This document shows, one piece after another, positions 53,320 to 63,767 of a DNA stretch of 64,000 bases; the stretch's first letter is position 1, and every line of letters starts with the position of its first letter. The translations under genes were made by a program, and so were the position numbers. Source of the stretch: Bryum argenteum. Taxonomy: Eukaryota; Streptophyta; Bryopsida; Bryales; Bryaceae. The stretch spans positions 33,687,364-33,751,363 of the forward strand of contig CM073322.1 of the NCBI GenBank assembly GCA_037043015.1, written 5' to 3'. The notes below the pieces were generated by a model. It was not told the origin of the DNA and searched no databases. It saw nothing but the letters and a program-made list of their open reading frames with translations.

Positions 53320-56300
53320 ATGGCGGCCGCCAACGCCCCCATCACCATGAAGGAGGCACTTACGGTACTTCTCTCGCACTTTGAAAAATCTTCTGTAGCT
53401 TCCGGGTGATCGTTGGCATGATTTTTTTTTTGCGGAGGCAATTAGGATTGTTTTCGTCGGTTCTTGGGAGTTTGGGAGTGATCGCAGGTTTCAGGTTGGG
53501 AATCAGGGGTTTAGAGGATTGTGAGGCGTGTATTTGGTGAGAGAGGGCTGGGGATCGGGGAATTGTGAGATGGTTAAATTTGGTATAGTGAGGGTGGGGG
53601 GTTTATTGAGCTGGTTTTTGTGTGGAAATGCAGCTGACGAGCTTGGGCATCAACCAACAATTTGTGACATTCACTCACGTGACGATGGAATCCGACAAGT
53701 ACATCTGCGTGCGGGAGACGTCTCCGCAGAACAGCGTGGTGATTATTGATATGTCGATGCCTAACCAACCTCTTCGGCGGCCCATCACGGCGGACTCCGC
53801 TCTCATGAATCCCACTAGCAAAGTCCTTGCCCTAAAAGGTTCCTACTGTTCTCCCTCTTCTGTACTGAGACTCGGAGGTCCATCGCCAATTGGAATCGGC
53901 ATACGCTAGACGTGTCTCATTGAATCGAACCCTGAGTTATTTACACCTCGAGTCGAAGGCTGTTCGTTAAATACATCGCTCTTCTACTCTTAATTGAGCA
54001 CTTATTAGTGAGGGTACTCTTCCCTCGAACATGTACTTTTGGGCCAGAAGGCAGCACCAAAATCTGGACTGATTAGGAGAGATGGGTTCATTGTGAGTAG
54101 AGCTCTAAAGAGGAACCATGCAAGTAAACTGCATGTTTTTAATAACTCAGTTCTAAGTCTGTACTAGAGCCTTCGGTTTGTATACTCTGCATGGTCGGTA
54201 GGGATCATGCTAGGGACGAAGTTTCAGAGCAGTAGCTGAATTGATAAGAACGAGCGGCATTTGCCGATTGCCATCGTTTGAGTTGAGAATTTTCGCTCGT
54301 AAGAGTTGGAGGGGCTGACATAAGTGCCAGCCATAGATTATGGTAAATGGTAATGAAAGATTGGACAGAAGGGATAGTGTTTAGACGTCCATCGCTTAGT
54401 ACGCATATGGTACACTCATTACTGGAAACTAGACGCTGTCTGTACAGTAGCCGGTGGTCCATTCTACAGTTGGCACGATCTGAATGAAGTAGCTATTAAT
54501 TTGAGGTTGTATGGATACCTCATGTTACTTCTCGATTCTATAGTACGCAGAGTCTGCTTTTTCATTCACGAACCAACGAGGGTTGACGCTTTGTTTTTTT
54601 TTCCAGCTCAAATTCCTGGGACAGCTCAAGATCATTTGCAAATATTCAACATTGAGCTGAAGGCAAAAATGAAATCGTATCAGATGCCAGAGCAGGTAAA
54701 CATCAGCTCAATCATTGATGGTTTGTTTAGTGTAACGAGTTCCGTGCCAATTGTTCCTTGCTGGATCTGTCTCATATCTTTCCTCTGCTGACTACCACCC
54801 TGGGACTACTGCTTGCAGGTCGTGTTCTGGAAGTGGATCAGTCCAAAGATGCTGGGGCTTGTCACGCAGTCATCAGTATATCACTGGTCCATAGAAGGTA
54901 CAACAATAAATCAAAATTTTCATCTTTCTTCGATGTTTGTTTTCTGATCTTTTTTCGTAACCGTATTCTGATGCTTGATTGCCATTGTTGTAGGTGAAAG
55001 TGAACCAGTGAAAATGTTCGAGAGAACTGCCAACCTAACTGGAAACCAGATCATCAATTATCGGTGTGATCCCTCTGAGAAGTGGCTAGTGTTGATTGGC
55101 ATCGCCCCTGGTGCACCTGAGGTATGTTGAAACGGTGAATCTGGTTTCTTGGTTAGAAATTAGTGTTCCGTTTCTCTGCAAATGCCACCTATTCGTACGC
55201 ACCTATAGAGGCTTTTAGTTTCTTCTGCTCGTCCACTTTGTGCTTTGTGTTTTGGGTTTATTTGCGACATAGCTCAAATACGCTCTAGAGATAGCATTGA
55301 CAATGTTTGTTGTGATTTGCAGCGTCCACAGCTTGTGAAGGGGAACATGCAGTTGTTTTCCGTGGATCAGCAGCGAAGTCAAGCGTTAGAAGCACATGCA
55401 GCATCATTCGCATCTTTTAAGGTAACCCGTTCATTTGTTGACTTTGATTTTATGGCAGATTATATGATGTAGAGGTGCTCGTAAGCTGGCACTTCATGGT
55501 TTATTTGCTGCAGTTGTGATTATTTGAGGTGCTTCTTGAGTGATCCAGGTTTCAGGCAATGAAAAACCCTCTCTTCTTATTGCATTCGCAACAAAGACTA
55601 TTGCTGCCGGTCAACTTGTTTCAAAAATGCATGTCATTGAGCTGGGGGCTCAGCCAGGTCTGTGACCACTAATCTTGATCTTATGTAACAATAGTGGAAC
55701 TATCATGATGGGATGGAATCAGGTGCCAGGAAATGACTCACCGAGTCTACTAATTGCATTCTCAACAAAAACCATCAATGCTGGACAGCTTACTTCGAAG
55801 CTGCACATCATTGAGCTTGGTGCTCAACCAGGTTGGTTAGACCTGGAATGATCCACCTCTATCCAATCCTTTACCCAATTTAGTTCATACTTATCTGCAC
55901 TCAATTCAGTTCAGAATCCCTTCGACATCTACGTTTCTGCCTTCCATATTTTCGGAGGTTTTCATCATGGATTCATGGAACGGACTACTACGACCACTGG
56001 TCCCGCTGCAAGCGATTGCAGGGGCTGCTGATGCCACAATAAGTTGAATATCACTTAGATCTGTTACTGGTTTGCTCACTGGTTTTTTGCGTTTGATTAA
56101 CAGGTCGGCCCGGATTTGCGAAGAAGGCCGCAGATTTGTTCTTTCCCCCAGACTTCGCGGACGATTTTCCAGTCGCAATGCAGGTAGTTGCATCTCTTTT
56201 TCAAGATTTCTCTTTGTCGTGTTGACTATTACATGTAGTAGGTTCCGTATATGTGGAATTTAGAACATTTTAGCTCCACCTTCTTTCTACAGACTTTGTT

Positions 56301-59300
56301 GAACATTATCAGATGTCGTTTCGCCTGGGCTGAACTTCATTCCTTGTTTTCGCAGATTTCATCGAAGTACAATCTCATTTATGTAATTACAAAGCTGGGT
56401 CTTCTGTTTGTTTACGATCTGGAAACTGCTACAGCTGTGTATAGAAACCGTATCAGTCCAGACCCAATATTTTTGACAGCTGATGCTCCGTCAGTTGGTG
56501 GATTCTATGCGGTTAACCGTCGCGGACAAGTTCTGCTCGCAACCGTCAACGAGTCAACGATTGTTCCGTTTGTTAGCAATCAGGTGAACATCCAATTCAA
56601 CAGATTAGTATCACTCTACCTGACATAGTACATTTTATTACCCCTTGTACACTGAGTTTCTTTTTGGATTCGGTGCTGTGGCATCTTCTGACGTGATCGA
56701 ATGTGCCAGCTGAACAACTTGGAGCTTGCGGTGAACCTTGCAAGGCGAGGAAATTTGCCTGGGGCAGAAGGCCTGGTATGTTTGTACTTTCTTGCGGATA
56801 TTGGCAGTGGAGTAGGTTGTTTGTATCTGATTTTATTAGATATACGCCAGACCTAGTTTCTCTGATATCATGTAGTCACAGCTTTCTTGCGTGGTACACA
56901 TCATGTTACGTCCTCTTTTGAATGCCAAGGCATTCGTACATGAGTTTCTAACCAGAAAGCTGTGTTGTTGTATTCAGGTTGTTCAACGTTTCCAGGAGTT
57001 GTTCTCTCAAATGAAATACAAGGAAGCAGCTGACCTTGCAGCTGAATCACCACAAGGAATCCTTCGAACACCAGATACTGTGGCTAAATTTCAGGTTTGT
57101 CACGCATATGCATTTCAGTATCCCTATTTATCGCTTACAAATTTAGATGATTCTAAAATGGTGTCACTTCTACAGGCAGTAACTTTTTATTTTCATTACT
57201 GCAGAGTGTCCCGATGCAGCCCGGGCAGACATCACCTCTCTTGCAGTACTTCGGAACACTGTTGACTAAGGGTAAATTGAACTTGTTTGAATCACTGGAA
57301 CTATCTCGATTGGTTGTGAATCAAAATAAGAAGAATTTGCTCGAAAACTGGTTGGCGGAGGACAAGCTTGAGTGCAGTGAAGAACTGGGAGATCTTGTAA
57401 AGGTAACTCTTCGCCTTTTGATCAGTCTATGAGCTAGTACCTATGATCATCTAGAGGTCATTTTTCTGGGATTCCATTACTGAGCTTGTGTGCGACAGGC
57501 AAGACTAGTATGCTAGTAAGGTCTAGAACCTATTAAGTTCTGATGTACTAAAACGTAAGTTCTTTGTGAAGAATAGCTTCTGTACACTCGATCTTTACCT
57601 GGTTTCAGACGTCAAGAATGTGGCTATCTTCTGCTTTATTTCGTATCGATGTGCCGATTGATCCACATGTATTCATGTTTATTGTCTTTGCAGACTGTGG
57701 ACAATGACATGGCTCTGAAAATTTATATTAAGGCCAGGGCTACTCCCAAGGTGGTTGCAGCTTTTGCTGAGCGAGGTGAATTTGACAAGATCCTGATTTA
57801 CTCCAAGCAGGTGAATCTTTGCCGCATGTCGACTTTTTGCGGACTTTGTCTATGAGACCATGATGTTAGTGGATATTCTTGCCCTTATTCTGAACTGGTT
57901 ATGTATTGTACGAACAAGCAGACAGACATGCCTGACACTATTACCATATTTGTCTTGATTGCAGGTTGGCTATACTCCAGATTATCTGTTCCTACTCCAG
58001 ACCATCTTGCGATCGGATCCTCAGGTGCGTTCATATGACATTCTATAATTATTGTAAGACTTGGGGAAGTCTATTGTTCTTCGCAGCATTCAACTCGACA
58101 GTTTGTAGTGCTGATGGAGTCTGTTTATCTGCGGATGCAGGGTGCTGTGAACTTCGCTCTCATGATGTCTCAGCTGGAAGGGGGATGTCCAGTGGACTAC
58201 AATGTTATCACTGATTTGTTCCTTCAGGTACGGTCGACGCTGGTTGATGCTTGGCATTGTGCACAGTTTAACTAGACTGCTAGAGCGTATTCTTGCTTGT
58301 ATTGTATTTTTCTAATGAGATGTTTTTTGTGGACGTGCAGCGTAACATGATCAGGGAGGCAACCGCGTTTCTTCTGGATGTTTTGAAGCCTAATCTGCCA
58401 GAACATGCGCTGCTTCAAACCAAGGTTCGTTCTTGTTTGCTGCATGTCGTGCTTTTACACAAATATTTAGACATTGTACGTGGCCTGTTGACCATCTTGG
58501 CAAGTTTCAATCGTTTGAGTTGAAGATCATATGTTTGCTTATTTTATCTGTTTTCTTTTTATCGAGGCCAGTTATTGTGAACTGACATATTCTGGTCTCT
58601 TACCAGGTGCTGGAGATTAATCTGGTCACATTTCCCAATGTGGCTGATGCAATTTTGGCAAATGGCATGTTCAGCCACTACGACCGGCCTCGCATTGCCC
58701 AGCTCTGTGAGAAAGCTGGCTTGTACATGCGCGCTCTCCAGCACTACACGGAGTTGAATGATATCAAGCGTGTTGTGATCAATACTCATGCAATCGAACC
58801 TCAGGTATTATACTTTAACATCGTTGGGGTTTTAAAATCTTTGCATAATAGTTTGTTTCTTCCTTTGGAACTGGAGCCCATATCGAAGTAATTTTATAAC
58901 CTTGAAAGATGGAGATTTGAACCATGACATTTTTCTCTGTGTGCCTCTGCAGGCTCTAGTAGAATTCTTTGGAACCTTATCAAAGGAGTGGGCTTTAGAC
59001 TGCATGAAGGAGCTGCTCCAAGTCAATATGCGAGGCAATCTACAAATCATTGTGCAGGTGCGTAGAGTGGGGCAGCAGGGTTGCTTCTAGTTTAAGAATG
59101 ATGTCCGTTGTTTTGGCGGTTTTTGGTAGTCTTTCTTGAAGTGAGTAAGCGAAGAAGTTATCGACATCTGCTCAATAGTACTAAAAACTGTTATGTAAAT
59201 TGTACAGGCAAATGACTGACAAGTGCATTTGTATACAGGTTGCGAAGGAGTACGGGGAACAGCTGGGTGTCGATTCATGTGTTAAGTTGTTTGAGAGCTT

Positions 59301-62300
59301 CAAGTCATTTGAAGGGCTCTACTTCTTCCTAGGTGCATACCTAAGTACAAGGTCAGTATGCTTGTGGTGGCTTTTATTGTAAGGTTTTCAGGGGACTAGC
59401 CGTCATCTAAGTTTAGGAAGGTAATCTTGGAAATATTTGCAATCATGCGATCTCGCTTACGCATCTTTACTTCGCATCTTGTACGAGCCCACTTTTTCTG
59501 AAAGTGTTGGGATATTTTGTGTTCAGTGAGGACCCTGAGATCCACTACAAGTACATCGAGGCTGCAGCAAAGACTGGCCAAATTAAAGAAGTGGAGCGCG
59601 TCACTAGAGAGTCGAACTTCTATCCTCCCGAGAGGACTAAGAACTTCTTGATGGAATCCAAATTGCCAGATGCAAGGCCTCTGATCAATGTTTGCGATCG
59701 ACATGGCTTTGTGCCAGATCTTACTCATTATCTTTATGTGAACAACATGCTGCGATACATTGAGGGATACGTGCAAAAGGTAAATGTCCTTCAGTGATTT
59801 ATTTTGACTCACTCATGTACTGCGTACATGAGTGCCAGTTGAGTAATTTCCAGTTCCGTTTCCGATGTTTTTTGACATCTTCGTGTGTTACAGGTTAACC
59901 CGCAAAATGCACCCTTGGTGGTTGGTCAATTGCTTGATGATGACTGCCCCGAGGACTTTATTAAGGGATTAATCTTATCTGTCCGCTCACTTCTTCCGGT
60001 GGAGCCTCTGGTGGATGAGTGTGAGAAGAGGTAGCTTAGCTACCTAGTTGCTTCTGTCCTTTATAACGTTTATTGTATTCTTCTTACCAGGGCCTTAGTA
60101 TTTGTATCGAGGGCTTGTATCAATTTTGAGTCCGACACTGTTATCGAGATTCAATGTTCTGGTGGTTACTCTCCGCGGCTTGAGAACTAATGCTTTGTGG
60201 AATTTGACAGGAACCGATTGCGGCTGTTGACACAATTCTTAGAGCATCTGGTGAGTGAAGGAAGTCAAGATCCGCATGTGCACAATGCTCTCGGGAAAAT
60301 TATCATCGATACAAATAACAACCCGGAGCATTTTCTCACTACAAATCCTTACTACGACTCTAGAGTCGTTGGTAAGTACTGTGAGAAGCGCGATCCCACC
60401 CTTGCAGTTGTTGCGTACAAACGGGGTCTGTGTGATGATGAGCTTGTCAACGTTACCAACAAAAATTCTCTATTCAAGCTTCAGGCCAGGTGATGCTCTT
60501 TCCTGATTTTTGTTCATCTTAAAACATCTGGCGAATATCTAGCAGACTCGTTCTCATTATTTCTCTAGTCAGACTTCTCTAGATGAACTATATCTCAGTT
60601 AGTTAGTCCTGTACTCCTGAACTTTACCTCGATACTGTGTAACTGGGAGTGAACTAAAGGTGTCTTTGTGGTGTTGATCAGGTATGTGGTTGAGCGAATG
60701 GAGCCTGACTTGTGGTTGAAGGTCCTCGACCCAGAAAATCCTTGCAGAAGGCAGCTTATTGATCAAGTTGTGTCTACTGCTCTGCCTGAGAGTAAAAACC
60801 CAGAGCAGGTGTCAGCCACCGTTAAGGCGTTTATGACTGCAGACTTGCCCCATGAGTTGATTGAGCTTTTGGAGAAAATCGTTTTACAGAACTCTGCCTT
60901 CAGTGGCAACCCGAATCTTCAGAACTTGCTCATTCTCACAGCAATTAAGGCCGACACAACAAGGGTTATGGACTACATTCACCGGTTGGATAACTTCGAC
61001 GGTCCAGCAGTGGGAGAAATTGCCGTCGGTGCTGAGCTGTATGAGGAGGCATTTGCCATATTCAAGAAGTTTGACCTGAATGTGCAAGCAGTCAATGTTC
61101 TCTTGGATAATCTCAGGAGTATTGATCGTGCTGTAGAGTTTGCAGCCCGAGTGGAAGAGGATGAGGTCTGGAGCCAGGTGGGTAAGGCGCAGCTCAGAGA
61201 AGGACTGGTCAGCGATGCCATTGAGTCGTTCATCAAGGCAAATGATGCCACTCAATACAACGAAGTTATCGACGTGGCATCAGGTGTCAGAGCATACGAG
61301 GATCTCGTGAAGTACTTGAACATGGTACGCAAGAAGGTTAAGGAGGCGAAGGTGGATTCCGAGTTGATCTTTGCTTATGCAAAGCTCAACCGTTTGGACG
61401 ACATCGAGGAGTTCATTCTCACTCCCAATCTTGCCAATCTGCAAACTGTTGGAGACCGTCTATTTGATGAAGAATTATACGAAGCTGCCAAAATCATCTT
61501 CACGCACATTTCCAACTGGGCCAGACTTGCTAGCACTCTTGTCAAGCTTCACCAGTATCAAGCAGCCGTGGACGCGGCTAGGAAGGCTAATAGTGCACGG
61601 ACGTGGAAGGAAGTCTGCTTCGCTTGTGTCGATGCTGAGGAATTTCGCCTGGCCCAAATTTGTGGGCTCAATGTCATTGTCCAGGTATGCATTATCATCC
61701 TGTACTGTATTATGCAGTATGATGCTTCCATTCTCCAGTATTGTATTTGTGCTCTGGCCAATGTTGCTCTACCCACGTACTATTGCAAGAATTTTCTATT
61801 TATTTCCTTTCTCGTTCAAAGAAGGAAATGAGATAGCAAGTCCTGACTACAGTTGTAATCTTTTTCCGCAGGTTGATGATTTGGAAGAGGTTAGTGAATA
61901 TTACCAGAATAGGGGTCGTTTCGATGAGCTCATCTCACTTATGGAGAGTGGGCTGGGTTTGGAGCGTGCTCATATGGGCATCTTCACAGAACTTGGCACT
62001 TTGTACGCCAGATACCGTCCAGAGAAGCTTATGGAGCACCTGAAGCTTTTTGCTACGCGTATCAACATTCCAAGGCTAATCCGTGTTTGCGACGAGCAAC
62101 AGCACTGGAAGGAACTTACCTACTTGTATATTCAGTACGATGAGTTCGATAATGCTGCTGCTACTATGATGAGCCATTCTCCAGAAGCTTGGGACCATAT
62201 GCAGTTCAAGGATGTGGCTGTCAAGGTTGCCAACGTGGAACTTTACTACAAGGCTGCACATTTCTATCTGCAAGAGCATCCTGAGCTCATCAATGATCTG

Positions 62301-63767
62301 CTCAATGTCCTAGCTGCTCGCGTGGATCATACAAGGGTCGTGGATATCATGCGGAAGGTAATTACTCTACTAGAGCTTTTGTCAATTAAGTGTTGTTTAT
62401 ATTACGCGTGGACATTTCCTTGTTGCTCTAGCTTCCTGAGTAATCAGTACGCTTTCAGATACTTTGCCAGATATTGAGGTTTGCTATACAGTCGTGTCTT
62501 ACTTGAGCTTCACATCGTTTACAGGCTGGGCAACTACCACTGGTGAAGCCATACATGGTAGCTGTACAGAGCGCCAATAATGCTGCAGTGAATGAGGCTC
62601 TGAATGCGCTTTACATAGAGGATGAAGATTATGACAGGCTCAGGGAGTCCATTGATATGTATGATAACTTCGACCAGATTTCAATGGCACAACGGGTAAT
62701 GTTATTACCCTATCTTTAGGCTTGCTTTACCATATATTAAGCTGCTGATCAATATGAAGAATTAGCAGAGAATCCTATGTCGTTGGTTCATCGAGAATGC
62801 TGTCAATATTTGAAGCATATGCTGAATGGACTTTTGTGACCATCTTATCAGATTGAGAAGCACGAGCTTCTGGAAATGCGACGCGTTGCTGCTTACATCT
62901 ACAAAAGGGCTGGTAGATGGAAACAATCTGTGGCGCTTTCGAAGAAGGACAATTTGTACAAGGATGCGATGGAGACTTGTTCACAGTCAGGCGATCGTGA
63001 TCTTGCTGAGGAGTTGCTTACCTTCTTCGTGGACAAGGTGACTTATTATCACCCTTCTTATCATCATTTTCCAGGTCCCTGGCTGTTACCGATCTTTTAT
63101 TAAATGTGGGTCTTTTTACTTGTGCTGATGTATTGTATCTCCACGTTTGATACAGGGCAAGAAAGAATGCTTTGCTGCATGCTTGTACACATGCTATGAT
63201 CTCATTCGTGCCGACGTTGCTGTGGAGCTGGCCTGGATGCATGGCATGATGGACTTTGCCGTCCCTTACATGTTGCAGGTCCGTAACTCTTCATGCTCAT
63301 GTCACTTGACATACGATTGCTCTCCTTATTTTTAATGTGAAAGTGCCAATTTGGAAGCTAAAGGCTAATGGTGTCATCTGCTGCAGTTCATGCGTGAGTA
63401 CACAACAAAGGTTGATGAGCTTATCAAGGACAAAATTGAAGCAACTGAAGAGAAGAGGTCCAAGGAGTCCGAGGAGAAGGAGGTCGTCGCGCAACAGGTA
63501 TGACCCTTACTCAGCAGAGCACGGACTCGGATTATGTTCAGAATGGTGGATTTTTTAGCGAAGTAAACATCGACTGATGCTTACATTCACCTTCTTTTGC
63601 AGAATATGTATGCCCAGCTTCTGCCGTTAGCTCTACCTGCGCCACCTGTTGCCGGTATGAGTGGCGGTATGCCTGGGATGCCCGGAATGTCAGGCATGGG
63701 CGCAGGTATGCCAGGTATGCCTTATGGAGGAGGAGGTTATGGCATGCCTGCTATGAGTTCGTTCTAA
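53320..63767 (+). CDS. CHC: Clathrin heavy chain, with an alternative exon pair
   Basis: Twenty-nine exons per transcript join in phase to 1,706 residues, matching plant clathrin heavy chains (about 1,705): 53320-53364, 53634-53838, 54607-54695, 54819-54897, 54994-55121, 55323-55421, one of 55549-55657 or 55723-55831, 56104-56183, 56356-56583, 56710-56775, 56978-57094, 57205-57402, 57694-57810, 57965-58024, 58141-58227, 58341-58424, 58607-58804, 58953-59057, 59239-59351, 59527-59779, 59894-60030, 60211-60489, 60682-61684, 61872-62357, 62525-62695, 62852-63037, 63156-63278, 63387-63497, 63603-63767. The N-terminal beta-propeller (~1-330) binds adaptors; clathrin repeats form the leg (e.g. [20 protein letters not shown]); the C terminus is Gly/Met-rich. 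Three heavy chains form the triskelion that coats endocytic and trans-Golgi vesicles. The start [14 protein letters not shown] is conserved. The duplicated exon 7 is the unusual feature. Confidence 0.97.
55549..55657 (+). other. Clathrin exon 7a (alternative copy)
   Basis: This 109-nt exon encodes residues 216-252 of the beta-propeller and begins [18 protein letters not shown]. It enters in phase 0 and leaves in phase 1 (last codon G split). It has AG before it and GT after it. It differs from exon 7b at 8 of 37 residues. Confidence 0.85.
55723..55831 (+). other. Clathrin exon 7b (alternative copy)
   Basis: This 109-nt exon has the same length and phases as 7a and begins [28 protein letters not shown] in its second half is closer to the flowering-plant clathrin sequence as recalled. 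It is separated from 7a by a 65-nt intron with a purine-rich, poor acceptor region (GGATGGAATCAG). Many synonymous differences from 7a show long-term selection on the protein. Confidence 0.85.

Follow-up and report, generated by a model that had tools for sequence, protein, structure and literature searches.

Two consecutive versions of exon 7 in a clathrin heavy chain gene

The window, a 64,000-nucleotide stretch of the Bryum argenteum genome (GenBank assembly GCA_037043015.1, contig CM073322.1), lies on the contig referred to here as C2 and carries the C2 copy of a clathrin heavy chain gene. We assembled the model of this gene exon by exon and found that every internal border is GT-AG (Table 1). 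The gene is an intact clathrin heavy chain. The N-terminal 470 amino acids of its product matched the bovine clathrin terminal domain (1bpo) with an E value of 5e-159 over residues 6-470. A full-length protein search with 7a returned 84 matches among 100 candidates, none of which was named as a moss, perhaps as a consequence of the 90% clustering, which may hide isoforms. Among these 84 proteins, the highest identity to the C2 protein was found in the liverwort Calypogeia (P0039; 88.6% over 1696 residues), and other close full-length relatives came from the liverwort Riccia (88.5%) and the lycophyte Diphasiastrum (88.2%). A Sesamum fragment of 1070 amino acids was 88.3% identical, and the remaining named flowering-plant entries in the best 25 of the 84 matches were 86-87% identical. 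The C2 protein is thus at a similar distance from liverworts and from vascular plants, which, together with the duplication of the gene, points to a probable moss.

Table 1. Positions in the window of the clathrin heavy chain gene and of the features surrounding its exon 7 pair.
Feature	Position	Strand	Description	Basis
Clathrin heavy chain gene	53320..63767	+	30 exons, counting both 7a and 7b	Gene model, translation
Exon 6 (upstream exon)	55323..55421	+	Phase 0 exit	Gene model
Exon 7a	55549..55657	+	109 nt; phase 0 entry, phase 1 exit; residues 216-252	Gene model; database 7a-type relatives
7a-7b intron	55658..55722	+	65 nt, GT-AG; two YTRAY branch-point matches 15 and 21 nt from the donor	
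Exon 7b	55723..55831	+	109 nt; phase 0 entry, phase 1 exit; residues 216-252	Gene model
Intron 7b-8	55832..56103	+	12 of the first 13 nt match the C11 paralog; read-through GW(L/F)DL found again in P0101	
Exon 8 (downstream exon)	56104..56183	+	Phase 1 entry	Gene model

The initial annotation had described 7a and 7b as two exons of equal length and phase with GT-AG borders and a very short intron between them, and our gene model places both exons and the intron exactly there. The frame logic that it had put forward was reproduced as well: the C2 protein has 1706 amino acids with either 7a or 7b alone, while a transcript model containing both exons runs into a stop at codon 256 and a model lacking both at codon 252. 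We also recovered the 8 of 37 residues that it had listed as differing between the two exons (positions 217, 220, 221, 229, 234, 239, 242, and 244). At the nucleotide level, 7a and 7b lie in a tandem repeat of 114 nt with 74% identity, which extends 3 nt before and 2 nt past the exon borders and which was judged to be far above chance by inspection alone. The two exons are separated by 17 synonymous and 13 non-synonymous differences (dN 0.183, dS 1.24, ratio 0.15). A Pfam search with the 36-residue exon alone gave no match. An open reading frame around 7b (window positions 55675-55851) is open into both flanking introns and spans 58 amino acids from a TTG.

Recurrence and age of the exon pair

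A search of the genome (258.8 Mb in 25 contigs) gave at least three matches, corresponding to the window gene and to paralogs on C11 and C4. The C11 gene has both exons, each of 109 nt and with the same phases as in C2, separated by a GT-AG intron of 53 nt, and its frame is open over 1704 amino acids with either exon. The C4 paralog has a single exon 7, and the introns flanking it contained no convincing remnant of a second exon, only matches of 8-21 nt with a best E value of 0.02. This third copy (G000:C4 about 20812000-20822570; L005, L007) is more diverged, with dN of 0.10-0.13 from C2 and C11 over exons 2-6 and 8-10, and has a GTAAGT donor at exon 7. The C11 gene (G000:C11 about 1843296-1851591; L004, L006) has precisely lost introns 11 to 21 and 24 and has kept introns 1-10, as would be expected if part of the introns had been removed by cDNA-mediated loss.

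The pair also recurs in database sequences. A search with the 7a exon-sized frame gave 22 matches among 22 candidates, and an alignment of 7b, C11 7a, and C11 7b gave 20 matches among 21. Together, the two exon-sized searches comprised 34 distinct proteins. Two of them, P0087 and P0109, correspond to 7a and 7b of the window itself; for each, the longest contig in the protein database has 2905 bases, and the two possibly come from one contig. Besides these, we classed seven proteins as 7a-type (P0088, P0089, P0090, P0091, P0092, P0093, and P0110), and because P0089 and P0090 carry an identical exon, they represent six distinct further 7a-type exons. One further protein, P0101, was classed as 7b-type, P0108 and P0111 were assigned to neither type, and the other 22 of the 34 were classified by eye as ordinary single plant or algal exons. 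The combination of K221 and V239 was confined to 8 of the 34 short proteins (all seven 7a-type proteins and P0087); the other 26 lack it, as do all 84 full-length plant and algal proteins. These counts represent a consistency check rather than a blind test because the 7a-type exons had been picked partly by the same residues. S229, a mark of 7b, was found in P0101 and P0109 among the 34 and in 3 of the 84 full-length proteins. T239, which is present in 7b, is the common plant state (64 of 84).

Frames running past the 7a donor were compared with the window's own shifted frame, with 2000 shuffles for each, and the intron length was set by where the alignment begins. Read-through of P0088 reached 7b after an intron of 57 nt (12 of 18 residues identical; none of the 2000 shuffles as good), that of P0093 after 39 nt (10 of 18; again none), and that of P0090 after 55 nt (7 of 10; 23 shuffles as good). 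The P0090 result is weak on its own, as in a freer test shuffles reached 10 matches compared to its 9. 7b was found in all three of the 7a-type tails that were long enough, and those of P0089, P0091, P0092, and P0110 end too early for a judgment, within 7-15 residues. For the remaining 13 of the 16 tails tested, 170 or more of the 2000 shuffles were as good. The last 15 residues are common to P0088 and P0093, which might be close kin. We infer that the database carriers of the pair are mosses. DNA pattern scans gave no matches in viral contigs (scanned twice) or in prokaryote genome contigs (scanned once).

The relative age of the pair was evaluated with codon-model likelihoods for each of the 15 topologies that can relate the five exon copies (C2 7a and 7b, C11 7a and 7b, and C4). 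The three best topologies, which lie within 0.03 log units, all group 7b with C11 7b. The best topology without this group was only 9.1 log units worse, and a separate exon duplication in each gene was 16.7 log units worse. Thus, the likelihoods favor an exon duplication that predates the duplication giving rise to the C2 and C11 genes. They do not separate the order of 7a, C11 7a, and C4, and a 37-residue tree with other plants added gave no resolved grouping. The two genes have diverged by 4.4 neutral changes per codon with an omega of 0.017 (673 codons; exons 1-6, 8-10, and 23), that is, by about 1.5 neutral changes per site or about 0.7 per branch, with silent sites near saturation.

Exclusion mechanism and alternative readings

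Steric hindrance holds apart the mutually exclusive exons of α-tropomyosin and α-actinin in animals. The moss exons resemble such pairs, being homologous tandem exons of equal length and phase, separated by a very short intron, whose double inclusion breaks the frame. They differ in that they belong to a plant gene and in that the mechanism in clathrin is deduced from lengths alone. Introns in plants typically have a minimum length of about 70 nt. The 7a-7b intron measures 65 nt in C2, 53 nt in C11, and 57, 55, and 39 nt in the three database relatives, in line with the earlier proposal that its shortness could prevent joining of the two exons. By comparison, 46 further introns were measured in the three paralogs, with those of C11 and C4 covered in part, and every one of them is longer (minimum 77, median 155). 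A survey of human exon pairs describes a distance of less than 50 bp between donor and branch point as its criterion for steric interference (PMC5740500). On the assumption that branch points lie at least 18 nt from the acceptor, the donor is separated from the branch point by at most 47 nt in C2, 35 nt in C11, 39 nt in P0088, 37 nt in P0090, and 21 nt in P0093, all five figures falling below the approximately 50-nt criterion derived from human pairs. The C11 7a-7b intron contains no YTRAY motif. In introns as short as these, donor and branch point are crowded together, so that steric exclusion, with the frameshift as a backup, is the likely mechanism.

Thus, 7a and 7b are very probably true mutually exclusive exons. 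According to the scenario that we propose, exon 7 of the clathrin heavy chain would have been tandemly duplicated in an ancestor of mosses, and the gene duplication would have come later. Either 7a or 7b would be spliced between exons 6 and 8, as within an intron of 39-65 nt the 7a donor and the 7b branch point could not be used together, so that 7a would not be joined to 7b, and any product of double inclusion or skipping would be frameshifted and reach an early stop. The outcome would be two heavy chains whose sole difference is one hairpin of the terminal-domain propeller, adjoining the arrestin-box pocket at blades 4/5. We hold this scenario as a whole, including the moss ancestor, the order of the duplications, and the steric exclusion, with considerable confidence.

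Exclusion might instead depend on competing RNA pairing or on U2/U12 incompatibility rather than on distance. This alternative concerns the mechanism only and its odds overlap those of the scenario above; we consider it unlikely. RNA segments that compete for pairing have been put forward as a general explanation for tandem exon pairs (PMC6071210), but the 682-nt region folded no better than its shuffles (z -0.79, 20 shuffles), and the arms of the single inverted repeat reported lie in exons 6 and 8, with none having an intronic arm. Folding and repeat detection in this one region thus gave no signal of a competing RNA structure. None of the three donors concerned (exons 6, 7a, and 7b) resembles the U12 consensus.

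Weak splice sites were rejected as the basis of exon choice. Ranked from the weakest of 50, the C2 donors of 7a and 7b are 28 and 15 and the acceptors 30 and 19; in C11 the 7b acceptor is the sole weak one (rank 7 of 50) and the other scores are ordinary. Read-through after the donors gives (L/S)(C/S)LL(F/S)L after 7a in the relatives and GW(L/F)DL after 7b, and the first bases past the donors look conserved enough to be a starting point for the 7a/7b choice. Silent-site constraint is weak (P = 0.043 for 7b, 0.45 for 7a, and 0.06 for both jointly), as is extra conservation of the flanking introns (z of 2.2, 2.6, and 1.5).

A further possibility, which we regard as quite improbable, is regulated unproductive splicing. 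Here, 7b would be the working exon, and 7a would mainly yield frame-shifted transcripts containing both exons, whose destruction would set the level of clathrin. The early stop upon double inclusion is compatible with this idea, and so are the changes in C11 7a (L004 2859-2967), which has kept an open frame and intact borders and carries H243Y, E246G, and Q250S at positions that are constant in the other exon copies and in 84 of 84 (H243 and E246) or 83 of 84 (Q250) full-length proteins. This exon may be specializing or fading. However, each of the six other 7a-type exons has kept the five residues of the arrestin-box pocket described below, a conservation at the protein level for which a poison exon has no need, and the short introns would make products joining 7a to 7b unlikely.

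The pair could also be an old duplicate on its way out, with one copy being spliced and the other lingering. The C4 gene with its single exon fits such a decay, as does C11 7a. The latter shares 22 of 36 residues with C2 7a and differs from it by 20.5 non-synonymous changes, while none of 568 overlapping 36-codon windows from exons 1-6, 8-10, and 23 reached 10. Its omega was 0.35 with branch times free (2dlnL of 4.0 versus 1) and 0.49 with times fixed (2dlnL 7.9), and it is clearly relaxed and fast-evolving. The initial annotation had claimed selection on both copies and named a dN/dS near 1 for one copy as a sign of decay. The low ratio between C2 7a and 7b supports the claim, which holds more weakly for the relaxed C11 7a. 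With branch times free, an omega of 1 was not rejected for either C2_7a or C2_7b (2dlnL 0.4 each); rejection required that the times be fixed according to the remainder of the gene (2dlnL of 95 and 86), and the split of the fixed time between the branches is unstable.

Against decay, all four exon copies in C2 and C11 have kept their open frame, length, and splice sites despite near-saturated silent divergence, and the pair recurs in other sequences. In a substitution-only simulation of neutral exons, 2.3% kept an open frame and splice sites at 0.73 changes per site (2-3% at 0.6-0.73), and over the same range of divergence a neutral exon retained about 9-11 of its 36 starting residues. At 0.73, none of 4000 kept 23 of 36 residues, a level close to what C11 7a and C2 7a share over two branches. 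The simulation depends on time, as at 0.3 changes per site 16% kept 23 of 36 residues and the test loses its force. Taken with the recurrence of the pair, we find a dying duplicate very unlikely. We found no point in favor of an assembly artefact, the chance of which is practically negligible, since the two copies are 26% different and the arrangement is seen again both in the C11 gene and in sequences found separately in the database.

The arrestin box and two putative clathrin coats

The arrestin box lies between blades 4 and 5, and the residues lining it include bovine F216, F218, H229, I231, and V233 (PMC5182127); the yeast counterparts of arrestin-box residues have also been described (PMC11543927). 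By alignment to bovine clathrin, the counterparts of these five residues are I226, F228, H243, I245, and L247, and exon 7 encodes half of the pocket. C2 7a, C2 7b, C11 7b, and C4, as well as the six other 7a-type exons, agree at all five positions; C11 7a alone has Y243. Placed by alignment to the bovine terminal domain, the eight residues that distinguish 7a from 7b lie around the pocket, and none of them is among the five. Positions 217, 220, and 221 precede the first strand and are followed by 229, by 234 and 239 in or beside a hairpin that in the alignment is four residues longer than in cattle, and by 242 and 244. The suggestion that the segment lies where adaptors dock was therefore borne out in part: exon 7 does supply half of the arrestin box, but the five box residues that it contributes are the same in both versions.

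With these five residues shared by the two versions, any effect on adaptors would have to come from neighboring loops. It is possible that the pair forms an adaptor switch that acts around the pocket rather than in it; altered stability or altered contacts within the coat are equally plausible. More specifically, we tentatively suggest, as something that would more probably be wrong than right, that a long-standing either-or exon of mosses provides two coats from one gene, in which the hairpin beside the arrestin box shifts the preference for adaptors or accessory proteins.

Exon 31 of the animal clathrin heavy chain lies far from the terminal domain and is included or skipped. In vertebrates, this exon is alternatively spliced (PMC10225744), and the moss pair resembles it as a case of alternative splicing in the clathrin heavy chain. 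The moss exons differ in forming an either-or pair and in belonging to a plant gene. In Arabidopsis, MAF1/FLM has mutually exclusive exons, the second of which has been read as a recent cryptic exon found in MAF1-3 only (PMC3266260). Like 7a and 7b, these belong to a plant gene and alter a region of protein interaction; in contrast to those of this transcription factor, 7a and 7b of clathrin share a common origin and have both persisted through an old gene duplication.

The initial annotation had called such an arrangement unfamiliar in plant clathrin, and our search of the open-licence literature likewise gave nothing on point: it contained no match for a plant or moss clathrin heavy chain with mutually exclusive exons or for splicing of Physcomitrella clathrin, and the matches listed for mutually exclusive or tandem exons in bryophytes or Physcomitrella included nothing relevant. 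Large clusters of mutually exclusive exons have been called frequent in plants (PMC6071210). Because mutually exclusive exons have already been reported in plants (PMC3266260, PMC6071210), the surprise lies in the gene and the age of the pair, not in its kind.

The 39-65 nt introns offer natural test cases for the intron length below which two plant splice sites become mutually exclusive. Since mosses are readily edited, plants restricted to one isoform could be made. Few trafficking proteins are as conserved as the clathrin heavy chain. An old pair of exons that has been kept in related genes suggests that clathrin coats of two slightly different kinds are made in these plants. If true, this would be an old, conserved switch in the adaptor-binding domain, and splicing, in addition to the adaptors, could set the identity of the coat.
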